64,000 nucleotides of DNA from Verrucomicrobiota bacterium (GTDB taxonomy: Bacteria; Verrucomicrobiota; Verrucomicrobiia; Opitutales; Opitutaceae): NCBI GenBank assembly GCA_016235555.1, contig JACRKC010000030.1:1-64000 (forward strand), in the 5' to 3' direction. This document shows, one piece after another, positions 24,343 to 63,111 of this stretch (position 1 is its first letter; each line of letters begins with the position of its first letter). The translations under genes and the position numbers were made by a program. Under the pieces are notes generated by a model, which did no database searches, was not told where the DNA came from, and saw only the letters and a list, made by a program, of their open reading frames with translations.

Positions 24343-24416
24343 AAGTAGGGCAGGTCTGTGACCTGCCCTTTCGCGCGGTGAGTGTTCGCTGGGCAGGTCA
24401 CAGACCCTGCCCTACT
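24343..24416. repeat. Palindromic repeat (gtagggcaggtctgtgacctgccc)
   Basis: agtagggcaggtctgtgacc and its inverted partner ggtcacagaccctgccctac enclose about 25 bases. Each arm is itself palindromic, so the element can form a cruciform. Confidence 0.72.
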
Positions 24417-24461
24417 CCCGGCCGCCGTTCTGCGCAAAGTTCATGACGGAACGTGGCAGTC

Positions 24462-24580
24462 GAGGTGGAGCGCGTTGCCCTCAACGCGCTGGTATGAAGG
24501 TGGGAGCGGGTTTACCCCGCGACTCGTCGGGGCGTAAAGCCCCTCCCACAAAAAGCGCGTTGGGGGCAACGCGCTCCACC
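24462..24580. repeat. Composite palindromic element, family D with nested family G, copy 1
   Basis: Outer arms gaggtggagcgcgttgccct and gttgggggcaacgcgctcca; nested inside is gtgggagcgggtttaccccg with ggcgtaaagcccctcccaca. A copy with only a handful of differences lies at 59112-59231, inside the APC transporter gene. A shorter variant is in the helicase gene at 62701-62820. Confidence 0.88.
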
Positions 24581-42044: not shown

Positions 42045-42175
42045 TCAGGGAGTGTTTTCAAACCTGGTGGGAGGGGCTTCATGCCCCGACGAGCTTCGGT
42101 GTGCGCCGGGCGTCGGGGCATAAAGCCCCTCCCACAATTCTTTTTCGCGCGATTTCATGAGTTTGAAAACACTCC
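42045..42175. repeat. Palindromic repeat family G
   Basis: gagtgttttcaaacc at one end and gtttgaaaacactcc at the other; inside, tgggaggggcttcatgcccc and ggggcataaagcccctccca. The inner part is the same family that is nested in the composite elements at 24462 and 59112. Confidence 0.82.
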
Positions 42176-55872: not shown

Positions 55873-55989
55873 CTCCCAACACAAGGCGAAGCAAGTTTAC
55901 CCGCCTTTGGCGGCGCCGCAGGCGACCAGGGCTTTGCGGTATCGGACCCACAGCGAATGAAAAAATACATCAGCCAACCGACCTTGTTG

Positions 55990-56084
55990 GTCATTCTGAA
56001 CGTCGTGGAGGATCCAATTGGACTTTCGCATCCGCTATTGGCTTCGCCTCTCCTGCTGGATTCTTCGCTACGCTCAGAATGACA
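55990..56084. repeat. Dispersed repeat family E, copy 2
   Basis: gtcattctgaacgtcgtgga and gattcttcgctacgctcaga; related to 46617-46722. Confidence 0.82.
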
Positions 56085-56117
56085 GATCCGGCGATCGTTG
56101 CCGCTTTGCTTTCGACC

Positions 56118-58524: not shown

Positions 58525-58642
58525 GGAGAAACGCTCAACATTTAACTCTTAACGTTTAACGCTCAAGGGTCGGACCTCGTGCTCGGTGGCTGCTTCTGAA
58601 CCGTGAGGGTTGGGAGTTAAACGTTAAGCGTTGGGCGTTCAA
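58525..58642. repeat. Repeat family F, copy 2, overlapping APC gene end
   Basis: aacgctcaacatttaactct... and the inverse gggagttaaacgttaagcgt. It supplies the last codons (VERPTLNV) and stop of the APC transporter gene on the minus strand. Confidence 0.75.
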
Positions 58643-60677
58643 CCGTGTCGCCCACGCGGATCGGCAGCACCACGAACGGGAGGTTGGCGGCGAAGAAGCG
58701 GCGTTGCAGCGCGAGCGCGGTGTAGTTGTGGAGGAGGCGGGTGAGGCGCGTCTCGCGTGTAAACGCCAGTTGGCCGGCGAAGAAGACGCTGTGCGGAAAG
58801 CGGTCGCGCGCCTCGGCGGCGAGTCGCATGACTTCGCTCATGACATCGTGGCCCAGCGCGACGAAGGTCGCGGCGCCGTAGCCGTGGGCGCGAGCCCACG
58901 CGGCGTAGCGCTCGGCGGCGGCGGTCGTGTGCGCGCGGAGCGCGGCCAGATCCGCGGCGCCCTTGAAATTGCCGGCGTCGACGGTGCCGACCGAAATGAA
59001 CGCATAGTTTTTGAACGTGTCGCCGAACAGGCGCGGGACGTGCAAGGCCGTGTGCAGGCCGAGGCCGTTGTAGCCGTTGACGAGGATGACGGCGGTGCGG
59101 GCTGACGGGTCGAGGTGGAGCGCGTTGACCTCAACGCGCTGGTTTGAAGGTGGGAGCGGGTTTACCCCGCGACTCGTCGGGGCGTAAAACCCCTCCCACA
59201 AAAGCGCGTTGGGGGCAACGCGCTCCACCTCGGAGACGAGCAATTCGTCGAGGCGTTTGAGTTGCGCCGCAACGTTGCGGTAGTGTCGTTTGATCGCAAA
59301 GGCCGCGGCGACGACGAGGCCGGTCACGAGCAAGGTCGCCCAGCCGCCCTCGTGGAATTTCACGATCGTGAGCGAGACGAGGATGAAGGTCGTGAGCGCG
59401 AGGCCGAAGCCGTTGATCGCGAGTTTGCGCAGCCAGCGGGGCTCCGTGGGTCGCGCGCGCCACCAGTGCACGACCATCCCGAGCTGCGACAGCGAAAACG
59501 TGATGAAGACGTTGATGGAGTAGAGCACGATCAGCAGGCCGACGGATCCGCGCGTGAGCCCGAGGACGAGGAGCGCGGCGCCGCCCATGAGCAGGATGCC
59601 GTTCTGCGTGACAAACCGGTCGGAGAGATTGGCGAAACGAGTCGGGAACCAGCGGTCGAGCGCCATGTTGGCGAGCACGCGTGGGCCGTCGAGGAACCCG
59701 GCCTGGGCGGCGATGAAGAGCAGGGCCGTGGCCGACACGAGCGCAGTGAACACAAAGGTGTCGCCCCCGCGCGGCCACGCGGCGGTGAGTTTGCCGAGGA
59801 GGACGGCGTTGAGCGTTTTGCCCTCCACCGGTGCGACCCGAAACAGGAGATAGGCGACCAGCAGTCCCGCGGCGGTCACGGCCAGCGAGATGCCCATGAA
59901 GAGCATCGTGCGGCGGCCGGTCTGCACGCGCGGCTCGCGGAGGATCGGGAGGCCGTTGCTCACCGCTTCGATGCCGGTGTAAGTGCCGGCGCCCATGCTG
60001 TAGGCCTTGAGCAGGAGTGCGAACAGGCCGAGCCAGCCGATCCCGGTGGAGACCGTGTGGACCTCGCGGGCCGTCGCGGCGGCCACCTGGCCGAGTTCGC
60101 CGGCGTGGGTGGCGATGGCGTAGGCGATCGCGAATGTATGCGTGCCGACGAACACAAAAAACACCGGCACCCAGAGCAGCACGGACTCGCGCACGCCACG
60201 GAGATTGAGCAGCGTCAGGCCGGCGATGCCGAGGCCGGCAAACGCGAGTTTCCATTCGAGCCACGCCGCGGGCACGAGGGAGAACAGCGCGTCCGCGCCG
60301 CTGGCGACCGAGATGGTGATCGTCAGCACGTAATCGACGAGCAGCGCGCTGCCGGAGACGACGCCGGCGGCGGGCGAGAGCAGTTTGCTGGCGACGAGAT
60401 AGCCGCCGCCGCCCGCCGGGAAAAGTTCGATGATCTGCGAATAGCTCGCGCAGATCGCGACGATGGTGACGACCGAGGCGAGGGCGACGAAGAGGGACAG
60501 GTGGACGTGGGCGCCGAGGGTCTTGAAGGTCTCCTCGGGGCCGTAGCACGAGGAGGAAAGGCCGTCGGCGCCCAGGCCGACCCAGGCGAACACGGCGACG
60601 AGCGAAAGTTTGTGGAACAGGCCGGGCTCATGGAGCGAGCGCGCCCGGCCCACGAAGAAGGTGCGGAGCGCGTTCAT
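58617..60677 (-). CDS. APC-family amino acid permease with C-terminal cytosolic domain
   Basis: 686 residues from ATG 60677. Twelve transmembrane helices in residues 20-470; GLGADGLSSSCYGPEETFK is the APC/KUP-like entry signature, then GYLVASKLLSPAAGVVSGSA. The C-terminal 160 residues are soluble (TAVILVNGYNGLGLHTALHV, GHDVMSEVMRLAAEARDRF). Residues about 482-522 ([18 protein letters not shown]...) are encoded by a copy of a dispersed repeat, and the last 8 residues by another. Start overlaps the stop of a small membrane protein gene (ATGA). Confidence 0.85.
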   Translation of the reverse strand: MNALRTFFVGRARSLHEPGLFHKLSLVAVFAWVGLGADGLSSSCYGPEETFKTLGAHVHLSLFVALASVVTIVAICASYSQIIELFPAGGGGYLVASKLLSPAAGVVSGSALLVDYVLTITISVASGADALFSLVPAAWLEWKLAFAGLGIAGLTLLNLRGVRESVLLWVPVFFVFVGTHTFAIAYAIATHAGELGQVAAATAREVHTVSTGIGWLGLFALLLKAYSMGAGTYTGIEAVSNGLPILREPRVQTGRRTMLFMGISLAVTAAGLLVAYLLFRVAPVEGKTLNAVLLGKLTAAWPRGGDTFVFTALVSATALLFIAAQAGFLDGPRVLANMALDRWFPTRFANLSDRFVTQNGILLMGGAALLVLGLTRGSVGLLIVLYSINVFITFSLSQLGMVVHWWRARPTEPRWLRKLAINGFGLALTTFILVSLTIVKFHEGGWATLLVTGLVVAAAFAIKRHYRNVAAQLKRLDELLVSEVERVAPNALLWEGFYAPTSRGVNPLPPSNQRVEVNALHLDPSARTAVILVNGYNGLGLHTALHVPRLFGDTFKNYAFISVGTVDAGNFKGAADLAALRAHTTAAAERYAAWARAHGYGAATFVALGHDVMSEVMRLAAEARDRFPHSVFFAGQLAFTRETRLTRLLHNYTALALQRRFFAANLPFVVLPIRVGDTVERPTLNV
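59112..59231. repeat. Composite palindromic element (families D+G) inside APC gene
   Basis: Nearly identical to the intergenic element at 24462-24580: gaggtggagcgcgttgacct ... gttgggggcaacgcgctcca, with the nested gtgggagcgggtttaccccg. Open in frame on the minus strand. Confidence 0.9.
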
Positions 60678-60871: not shown

Positions 60872-61314
60872 GGGCGGACTCCGAAAAATGCGCGGCGCCG
60901 CGCGCGGCGGTTCGTCGCGCGCGGGCACCGGGCGGTGGTGTTGTGTGTGGAGCGACCGTGTCGCGTGCGCCCGAGCGCACGTGCAGTGGATCACCCTTCC
61001 CATGGCCGACGAGGTTAGCTGACGGGCTCGGTCCTAGGAAGTGACCTTGGCGGCGGTTACCCGCGGCCGTGCGCCCCGTCCGCCACGCGTTGACCGCGCT
61101 GCGGAATCTGGTTCCCCCGTGCTGTCCACCGAGGAAGCGGTGGCAGCTTAGGCGTGCGAATCCAAAGAACGCGGCGGAGCATGAAAACCGCGGGCGGGCG
61201 ATCAAGCACCGCGACTACGCAGGTTGCGCAAGTGTCGATTTGAGGAGCGGATGGCCGGATAATTACGGGCGAATGCAGACTCGCCGTGGACCCGACCGGG
61301 CGCCAACGTGGCCC
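60872..61314. other. Upstream region of DEAD-box helicase gene
   Basis: No gene or strong repeat seen. Likely carries the divergent promoters of the small membrane protein/APC genes and the helicase. Confidence 0.5.
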
Positions 61315-63111
61315 ATGGAAAAACGCCCGTTCTCCGAACTCGGTCTCTCGCCTGAACTGCTCAAGGCCGTCGACAAGCTGGGATTCGAGGAGGCGTCGCC
61401 GATCCAGACGGCGGTGATCCCCGTCGCGCTCACGGGCAAGGATGTCGTCGGCCAGTCCTCCACGGGCTCGGGCAAGACCGCGGCGTTTGCGATTCCGGCG
61501 ATCGAGCGGGTGGATCCGAAGCTGCGGGCCGTGCAGGTGCTCGTGCTGTGCCCGACGCGCGAACTCGCGGTGCAGGTGGCGGAGGAGGTGGGCAAGCTGG
61601 CGTTCTTCAAGCGCGGGGTGCGCGAGGTGCCGATCTACGGCGGGCAGAGCTACGAGCGGCAGTTCCGGGCGCTCGACGCCGGCGCGCAGGTGGTGATCGG
61701 CACGCCCGGTCGGGTGATGGATCACATGGACCGCGGCACGCTGCGGCTCGACGCGCTCCAAGTCGTCGTGCTCGACGAGGCGGACCGGATGCTCGACATG
61801 GGCTTCCGCGACGACATCGAAAAGATTCTCTCCGCCGTGCCGGAATCGCGGCAGCTGTTGTTCTTCTCGGCGACGATGCCGCGGGAGATCCAGGACCTCA
61901 TCAAGCGCTACAGCCGCGACCCGGCGTGGATCAAGATCGAGGCGCTCGCGCAGAACCGACCGCAGGTCGAGCAGGTGTGGTTTGAAGTCGACCGCCGCTC
62001 AAAGATCGAGGCGCTCACGCGCCTGATCGACGTGAACGATTTCCGCTACGGCATCATTTTCTGCAGCACCAAAATCATGGTCGACGACCTGGATGAGCAC
62101 CTGCACTCGCGCGGCTACGCGACGGACCGGTTGCACGGTGACATTTCGCAGGCGCAACGCGACCGGGTGATGCAGAAGTTCCGCGAGCGGAAGTTCGAGT
62201 TCCTCGTGGCGACGGATGTCGCGGCGCGCGGTCTCGATGTCGACGACCTCGAGGTGGTGTTCAACTACGATCTGCCCAACGATGCCGAGGACTACACGCA
62301 TCGCATCGGCCGCACGGGCCGCGCGGGCCGGAAAGGGCGGGCCTTCACGTTCGTCTCGGGTCAGGAGCTCTACAAACTGCAGGGCATGGTGCGCTGGGCG
62401 AAGCTCGATGTGCGACGCGGCCGCATCCCCTCCCTCGACGAGGTGGAGGAGGCGAAGACCAATGTGTTTTTCGAGCGCATCCGGGCGACCCTCGATGCGA
62501 AGCAATTCAAGCCCCACGACCGCATGATCGACCGGCTGCTCGACCAGGGTTACGCCAGCACGGACATCTGTTCGGCGCTCATCCACTTGTTGCACGGGGG
62601 CGAATCCGGCAGTGCCGCGCCGGCCCCCGCCGTGGCTCCGAAGACCCCCGAAGGGGCCCCGGCGTGGGTGAAGAAGGCGATGTCGCCCAAGCCCGGGCCT
62701 GAAGTGGAGCGCGTTGCCCCCAACGCGCTTCCGTCGCCGGCAGGGAAGCCACCGACTGAATCTCCCGTTGACGAAGACGAGGATCGCGAAAGCGCGTTGG
62801 AGGCAACGCGCTCCACCTCCAAGTCGAAATACGAGCGCCCCGCGCGCACGGGCCGCGAGCCGGGATTCACGACGGTTTTCCTGAACGTCGGGCGCAAGCA
62901 GCTCATCACCCCCGCCGACGTGGTGGGCAAAATCGCCGGCGTGACGCGCCTCCCGGCGAATGTGGTCGGCGCGATCGACATCCACCAACGCCACACGCTG
63001 GTCGACGTGGCCGAGGGGCACGCGCTCGCCGTGATTCAGAAGCTCGGCGGCATCAAGATGAAGGGGGTCGCCCTCGCGCCGACGCTCGCCCAGCCCGGCA
63101 CAGCATCGTAA
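61315..63111 (+). CDS. DEAD-box RNA helicase with DbpA-type RNA-binding domain
   Basis: 598 residues from ATG 61315. Q motif [11 protein letters not shown], Walker A STGSGKT (K54), PTREL, GGQSYER, TPGR, DEAD (154-157), [21 protein letters not shown] and [10 protein letters not shown] are all intact. C-terminal DbpA/CsdA RNA-binding domain about 515-580 ([20 protein letters not shown]). Acts in ribosome assembly or RNA decay. The linker between the core and this domain (about 463-501) is encoded by repeat family D ([20 protein letters not shown]). Confidence 0.93.
62701..62820. repeat. Repeat family D element inside helicase gene
   Basis: gaagtggagcgcgttgcccc and gcgttggaggcaacgcgctc as inverted arms; in frame in the linker of the DEAD-box protein. 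Confidence 0.85.

Follow-up and report, generated by a model that had tools for sequence, protein, structure and literature searches.

A composite REPIN lies in frame in the variable linker of a KimA-like transporter gene in a probable Opitutaceae genome

The window analysed here (the whole stretch of DNA, 64,000 nucleotides in length) carries an APC-superfamily transporter gene on the minus strand and a DEAD-box RNA helicase gene on the plus strand, and in both genes repeated palindromic sequences lie in frame (Table 1). The nearest solved relative of the transporter is the potassium transporter KimA, with which residues 4-478 could be aligned by phmmer (6s3k_B, E 3e-63), the alignment ending just before the insert. 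Among related genes, the highest identities are to those of MAGs named Opitutaceae and Opitutae (79 and 78% at best), and the genome most likely belongs to the Opitutaceae. Two further stretches at lower coordinates in the window were noted: an inverted repeat of the CTCAACATTTAACTCTTAACGTTTAACGC type was seen by eye at 58534-58643, between the ends of the MFS and APC genes, and the mechanical ORFs at about 55975-56095 read HSERSEES...FRMTNKVG on one strand, which we take to resemble a widespread repeat-derived spurious peptide.

Table 1. Positions of the genes and repeat elements discussed in the text (window coordinates unless a genome and contig are given).
Feature	Position	Strand	Description
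APC-superfamily transporter gene	58620..60677	-	686 codons; PF13520 (AA_permease_2) E 3e-17
Composite REPIN, in-frame insert	59111..59232		122-nt palindrome; arms, inner palindrome, copy at 24462-24580
Outer arms	59111-59140 / 59203-59232		30 nt each, 93% complementary, 62 nt between
Inner palindrome	59150-59173 / 59176-59199		two 24-nt arms
REP-A unit	59114..59142	+	0 mismatches to GGTGGAGCGCGTTGNNNNCAACGCGCTGG
REP-A unit, inverted partner	59201..59229	-	2 mismatches
Nested REP-B dimer (GTGGGAG...GTCGGGGCGTAAAACCCCTCCCAC)	59150..59199		inside the REP-A pair; same REP flanks RAYT gene L105
Intergenic copy of composite REPIN	24462..24580		96.6% identity; frame model: no coding signal on either side
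REP-B dimer alone, without REP-A arms	42067..42137		
DEAD-box RNA helicase gene	61345..63108	+	DEAD, Helicase_C, DeaD_dimer, DbpA (Pfam on 61201-63108)
REP-A pair in frame in helicase linker (...SALEATRST)	62703..62817		spacer 57 nt, not REP-B
GTAGYCGGGSTC-type REP within mnmA	G023:C7:46856-46902		
GTAGYCGGGSTC-type REP within mnmA	G020:C1:50681-50703		
CGGGTCTCCCGACCCG within mnmA	G026:C89:12082-12097		

The element in the transporter gene is a composite REPIN, in which two inverted REP-A units enclose a REP-B dimer. The initial annotation had described the sequence from 59112 as nearly the same as the intergenic element at 24462-24580, nested inner palindrome included, and as open on the coding strand of the transporter. 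In a within-window comparison the two copies showed 96.6% identity over 119 nt (E 2e-52), both palindromes were located, and a minus-strand open frame of 865 codons was found to run through the whole element, confirming the description on each of these points. The extent is best given as 59111-59232, so that about 40 codons lie in the element. When the window copy was folded as a single strand, z was -11.9 for DNA and -12.2 for RNA, and none of 200 dinucleotide shuffles was as stable. The REP-A unit has the form GGTGGAGCGCGTTG-N4-CAACGCGCT(GG), with the tetranucleotide tag GTGG at its 5' end; REP-B likewise has a GTGG tag. Adjoining the intergenic copy, a GTAG-tagged inverted pair, GTAGGGCAGGTCTGTGACCTGCCC ... 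GGGCAGGTCACAGACCCTGCCCTAC, was noticed by eye at 24345-24417; going by its letters, it is apparently a further REP family.

In the genome assembly (8.03 Mb in 140 contigs), the REP-A core gave 198+179 matches at up to one mismatch, compared to 0+0 for the reversed control, and 380+386 at up to three mismatches, compared to 6+4 for the control. At least 40 places in the genome match the composite element with an identity of 92% or higher, a count for which 40 of the 340 candidates were scored. Of 57 genomes (own genome included), 16 contained the core, and these all belong to a single family; the 20 genomes taken from the order's other families lacked it. We collected 130 distinct REP-A copies, comprising 35 single units and 95 inverted pairs; 51 of the pairs were nested (115-120 nt, with REP-B in the spacer), 40 were simple and 4 fell into neither class. 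This collection leans to nested copies, some of the searches having used a nested copy as query, and a sample drawn without regard to coding had 18 nested pairs out of 60. Simple pairs measured up to 83 nt and had variable spacers, while the spacer sequence of nested pairs was nearly constant, indicating that the composite has multiplied as a unit. With 95 of the 130 copies paired and the window copy folding at a z of about -12, the arrangement is that of an inverted doublet able to form one hairpin. In at least nine contigs (C14, C16, C23, C33, C35, C36, C38, C39 and C48), a REP-A core stands about 120 nt or less from an end; REP-A is thus probably a limit on the assembly, and its copies may be more numerous than counted.

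Eleven Y1_Tnp loci (L100-L110) were found in this genome, 10 of them above the Pfam cut-off. One of these, L105, is a RAYT (REP-associated tyrosine transposase) gene according to NCBIfam NF047646 (96 bits, cut-off 80), and REP-B flanks it on both sides. None of the 11 loci, at least one of which lies at a contig end, has REP-A immediately beside a RAYT gene; a REP-A copy lies about 1 kb from L107, but a different repeat adjoins that gene. In relatives, REP-A-like repeats (5 mismatches) stand on both sides of the RAYT genes L271 and L283 (2 of 30 loci). Repeats beside at least five Y1_Tnp loci were of the GTAGGTCGGGC type at L104 and L109, GTGGGAGGGGC at L105, GTGGCACGGGTC at L108 and GGACGGCTCGG at L107, and from their sequences several RAYT/REP pairs seem to coexist in the genome.

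The transporter was compared with 51 related loci, of which 48 could be aligned and 46 covered the insert site. A scan for REP-A with up to 5 mismatches found none in the linker of 45 of these 46 homologues. Measured from the D of RLD to the T of RTA, both conserved, the linker is 50 residues long in the window protein and 22-40 in the 46 homologues; the commonest length is 25 residues (18/46), and the nearest homologue, L185, has 31. Alignment with APC homologues that lack the insertion had been put forward as the check on the initial reading, with a 40-residue segment of the same sequence kept in genomes without the repeat as the outcome that would overturn it; the linkers of 22-40 residues, all shorter than that of the window protein, and the 45 of 46 homologues without REP-A speak for an insertion on both counts. 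On the same evidence, we rejected the possibility that the 40 residues are an old part of the transporter. As to the 40 residues that the insertion was said to add, the element does hold about 40 codons, yet the linker exceeds those of the homologues by a smaller amount, 10-28 residues. A plain insertion is therefore insufficient to account for the length, and an additional loss or replacement of linker has to be assumed: some of the original linker is missing and may have given way to the element. The exception among the homologues, L226 (Oleiharenicola sp., Opitutaceae), has a degenerate REP-A-like sequence, GTGGAGCGCACTGAGGTCAGCGCGATCCACC, in the same linker, with 4 mismatches to the core, and no REP-A match with 4 or fewer mismatches occurred on either strand of 3.8 Mb of first-order simulated sequence. 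Since the L226 linker, with 26 residues, is of a common length, the REP there is argued by sequence and not by length.

Identity to seven close relatives was 76-85% before the insert and 72-81% after it, so that the part behind the insert looks constrained. In an AlphaFold model built with 28 sequences (mean pLDDT 82), pLDDT fell below 50 at residues 489-510 and 512-519, with order on both sides, and the insert is predicted to be disordered. Given the open frame and the conserved downstream domain, the simplest reading would be that the insert is read through and translated.

The frequency of REP-A in frame in genes was determined with a 5th-order frame model of our own making, for which 464 kb of this genome served as training data and which took the place of a standard gene finder. 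The sample drawn without regard to coding combined the window with contig C82, 80 kb of C49 and the REP-A places listed for C1 to C50, leaving out three places at the ends of C33, C35 and C36. It held 85 copies, 74 of them classifiable, and 12 of the 74 lay in frame in genes (nested pairs 1/17, other pairs 9/40, singles 2/17). In the whole collection, where the choice of some loci had favoured long open frames, 13 of 115 classifiable copies were in frame, and the transporter copy was the only one among 49 classifiable nested pairs. Another 17 of the 74 sampled copies had one-strand coding signal on both sides and no shared open frame, and these are maybe gene ends or broken genes. The extragenic share is 45 to 62 of 74; REP-A is mostly extragenic, as expected of REPs and REPINs. 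The palindrome had been introduced as a dispersed element, with a count of its copies in the genome and of the share in frame in genes suggested as a check; the count gave a high-copy family (198+179 matches) with 12 of 74 sampled copies in frame. A special coding adaptation of the nested element was also considered and was unsupported, as nested copies had a mean of 2.1 open frames out of 6 compared to 3.6 for simple dimers, and a single in-frame case in 49.

The genes hit, 13 in total, encode the transporter, the DEAD helicase, MnmA, a protein kinase, a methyltransferase, an SBD_N protein, a chromate transporter, an NAD(P)H-hydrate dehydratase, a FecR protein, a TPR membrane protein (L044) and a similar, unscanned protein (L161), with weaker calls for L143 (Pfam below cut-off) and L149 (no Pfam match). 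In four of the ten scanned proteins, the Pfam match crosses the insert and is longer than the stretch of profile that it covers (Pkinase, 250 residues on 216 profile positions; Methyltransf_32, 156 on 142; tRNA_Me_trans, 211 on 200; SBD_N, 213 on 207). Seven inserts use the VERVAPNAL frame, six the WSALP frame and none the third, where a TGA stop stands when the loop starts with A. The REP-A pair in the protein kinase (L042:1498-1566) lies in the catalytic domain, between the HRDLKPSN and DFG motifs. In the two similar membrane proteins, the in-frame REP-A occupies a matching position (L044:1498-1526 and L161:2018-2098), which suggests either insertion before duplication or a repeated hit.

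Relatives of the DEAD-box helicase were found at E <= 1e-60 in 55 of 57 genomes (own genome included, paralogues counted). The helicase linker of G031 carries a stem-compensated REP-A-like hairpin (AEHVVPNVLG) with 3 mismatches, and that of G021 a weaker one with 5 mismatches. A net gain in length was not demonstrable for the helicase, since the linker length is too variable among the 30 aligned loci.

A similar comparison was made for mnmA, which was found in 55 of 57 genomes (own genome included) and examined at 30 loci. The segment from ATGHYA to the residues before NKDQSYF has 14-20 residues in 15 loci and 25-45 in the other 15. The mnmA loop of the window's genome contains a REP-A pair, and a REP-A pair with nearly the same spacer occupies the loop of G015 (genus g16; mnmA locus L249). 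In the L249 hairpin, a paired change from C-G to G-C at one stem position turns Ala to Pro. Template switching can produce paired changes at quasi-palindromes in the absence of selection, and the L249 stem change could be such a template-switch correction. The variant core of G015 has one exact occurrence in that genome, in mnmA itself, and was therefore probably changed in place. Several genomes closer by mnmA identity than G015 do not have the REP-A pair, so that vertical descent of the G015 pair is not straightforward.

Other genomes have other repeats in this loop. The loops of G023 and G020 contain GTAGYCGGGSTC-type REPs, with 21 and 60 copies in the respective genomes (control 0), and the loop of G026 contains CGGGTCTCCCGACCCG, with 18 genome copies at up to one mismatch (control 0); in the window's genome, the CGGGTCTCCCGACCCG core is part of the repeats around the RAYT locus L108. 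In samples of 100-200 kb, the mnmA hairpins of G030 and G026 had no copy outside mnmA and that of G017 had one; the family count given here takes in G026, which was confirmed genome-wide, and leaves out G030 and G017. The folding control for the mnmA loops was unclean, with at most two same-length gene windows folding as well in 10 of the 15 long and 5 of the 15 short loops, and the claim for several families rests on genome-wide repetition and not on folding. By their sequences, at least three genome-repeated REP families seem to occupy one mnmA loop in different genera. The long mnmA loops of G022 and G001 also look partly palindromic by eye. Whether REPs are a recurrent source of protein linkers in Opitutaceae, with certain loops hit repeatedly (that of mnmA and, with REP-A-like stretches in other genera in L226 and G031, the KimA-like and helicase linkers), is in our judgement an evenly balanced question; such loops would be either preferred RAYT targets or among the few places where insertions survive selection.

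Overall, we are highly confident that a composite REPIN landed in the variable linker of the KimA-like transporter with the frame kept, and that it is probably translated and most likely without a dedicated function. As a mechanism, a RAYT (TnpA-REP) HuH transposase would mobilise single-stranded REP hairpins, in keeping with the processing of single-stranded hairpins described for TnpA-REP (PMC8266576), and one composite copy would enter the linker that joins the membrane domain to the cytosolic C-terminal domain. The gene would have stayed open because the length and open frame of the element fitted and the linker tolerates change, and the element would be translated into some 40 disordered residues in place of part of the old linker. 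Selection would remove copies that break genes, and the survivors, presumably neutral, would be left between genes or in frame in permissive loops. The transporter insert is most likely tolerated baggage in a disordered linker.

Three other explanations were weighed against this one. If the insertion had inactivated or split the gene, the transporter domain would stand alone and the downstream domain would be lost or restarted; the strong predicted RNA hairpin (-87 kcal/mol) could hinder transcription or translation, and a very recent insertion could look alike. However, the reading frame is unbroken, and the domain behind the insert is nearly as similar to the seven relatives as the part before it, and we regard inactivation as unlikely. 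An assembly artefact, in which two separate places were joined across the repeat during short-read assembly, appears more improbable still: it is favoured by the fragmentation into 140 contigs and by the REP-A cores close to contig ends, but both flanks encode one protein that is collinear with homologues of the same order, and the order of the APC and helicase genes is kept in the relatives G024 and G021.

It is also conceivable that selection has put the mRNA hairpin or the peptide linker to a regulatory or structural use. The REP-A pair in mnmA of G015, with its nearly identical spacer and its paired change across a stem position, is what such domestication might leave behind, but the paired stem changes are open to template switching without selection, the inserts lie in unrelated genes and the one that was modelled is predicted to be disordered. 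We give domestication a small chance, comparable to that of inactivation, and retain the tolerated in-frame insertion as the preferred reading.

An in-frame REP in an Opitutaceae gene is of a kind already published for Opitutus terrae, in which intragenic REPs of the GTAG superfamily have been described (Di Nocera et al. 2013, PMC3733652). According to that source, the O. terrae inserts are mostly dimers or groups that add 20-30 residues, RNA helicase genes are among the targets, and the tag of the GTAG-20 family is mostly GTGG. The elements described here share with them, most likely, the family Opitutaceae, and also the in-frame position in genes, the helicase target and the GTGG tag, the likeness of REP-A to GTAG-20 being one of tag. 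The main-text parts of PMC3733652 consulted contain neither nested REP dimers nor mnmA as a target, its supplementary list of target genes lying outside this scope, and nothing on nested REPINs or on mnmA as a REP site was found among the papers listed in searches of the open-licence literature. The present results carry the published intragenic Opitutus REPs over to another genome, where comparison with homologues supplies the proof at one site.

REPINs have been described as inverted REP doublets with a spacer, which are predicted to form a hairpin, occur in high copy number and are linked to RAYTs (Bertels and Rainey 2011, PMC3116915). The elements here are alike in their inverted doublets, hairpin and high copy number, with the RAYT link seen for REP-B. 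In P. fluorescens SBW25, the REPINs are reported to be almost purely extragenic, with 14 of 1,067 sixteen-mers overlapping genes (PMC3116915), in contrast to the 12 of 74 sampled copies in frame in genes here, where in addition 18 of 60 sampled doublets enclose a second REP doublet. The composite indicates that one REP doublet can lie nested within another and multiply along with it, the inner REP being RAYT-linked.

The initial annotation had drawn a parallel to the Rickettsia palindromic elements, which insert in frame at high frequency into unrelated genes and add a stretch to the protein (PMC10969869). The parallel applies to the behaviour, that of a palindromic mobile element in frame in unrelated genes, but not to the anatomy, which is that of a RAYT-type REPIN with a nested doublet: RPE-4 and RPE-6 are assigned to a CGTC-tagged class (PMC3733652), whereas the element here has a GTGG outer tag and a RAYT-linked inner repeat, and comes from a different phylum.

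The closest counterpart to the mnmA loop is recB of Xanthomonas campestris and X. oryzae, which is reported to carry different REPs at about the same site (PMC3733652). The two cases are alike in that different REPs occupy about the same site in orthologues; in mnmA, at least three families are involved, in different genera, and it is this convergence of in-frame REPs of several families on one loop that is apparently new. The MnmA loop with its varied REP families offers a countable system in which to examine a possible supply of protein linkers by mobile hairpins, and targeted as opposed to tolerated insertion.
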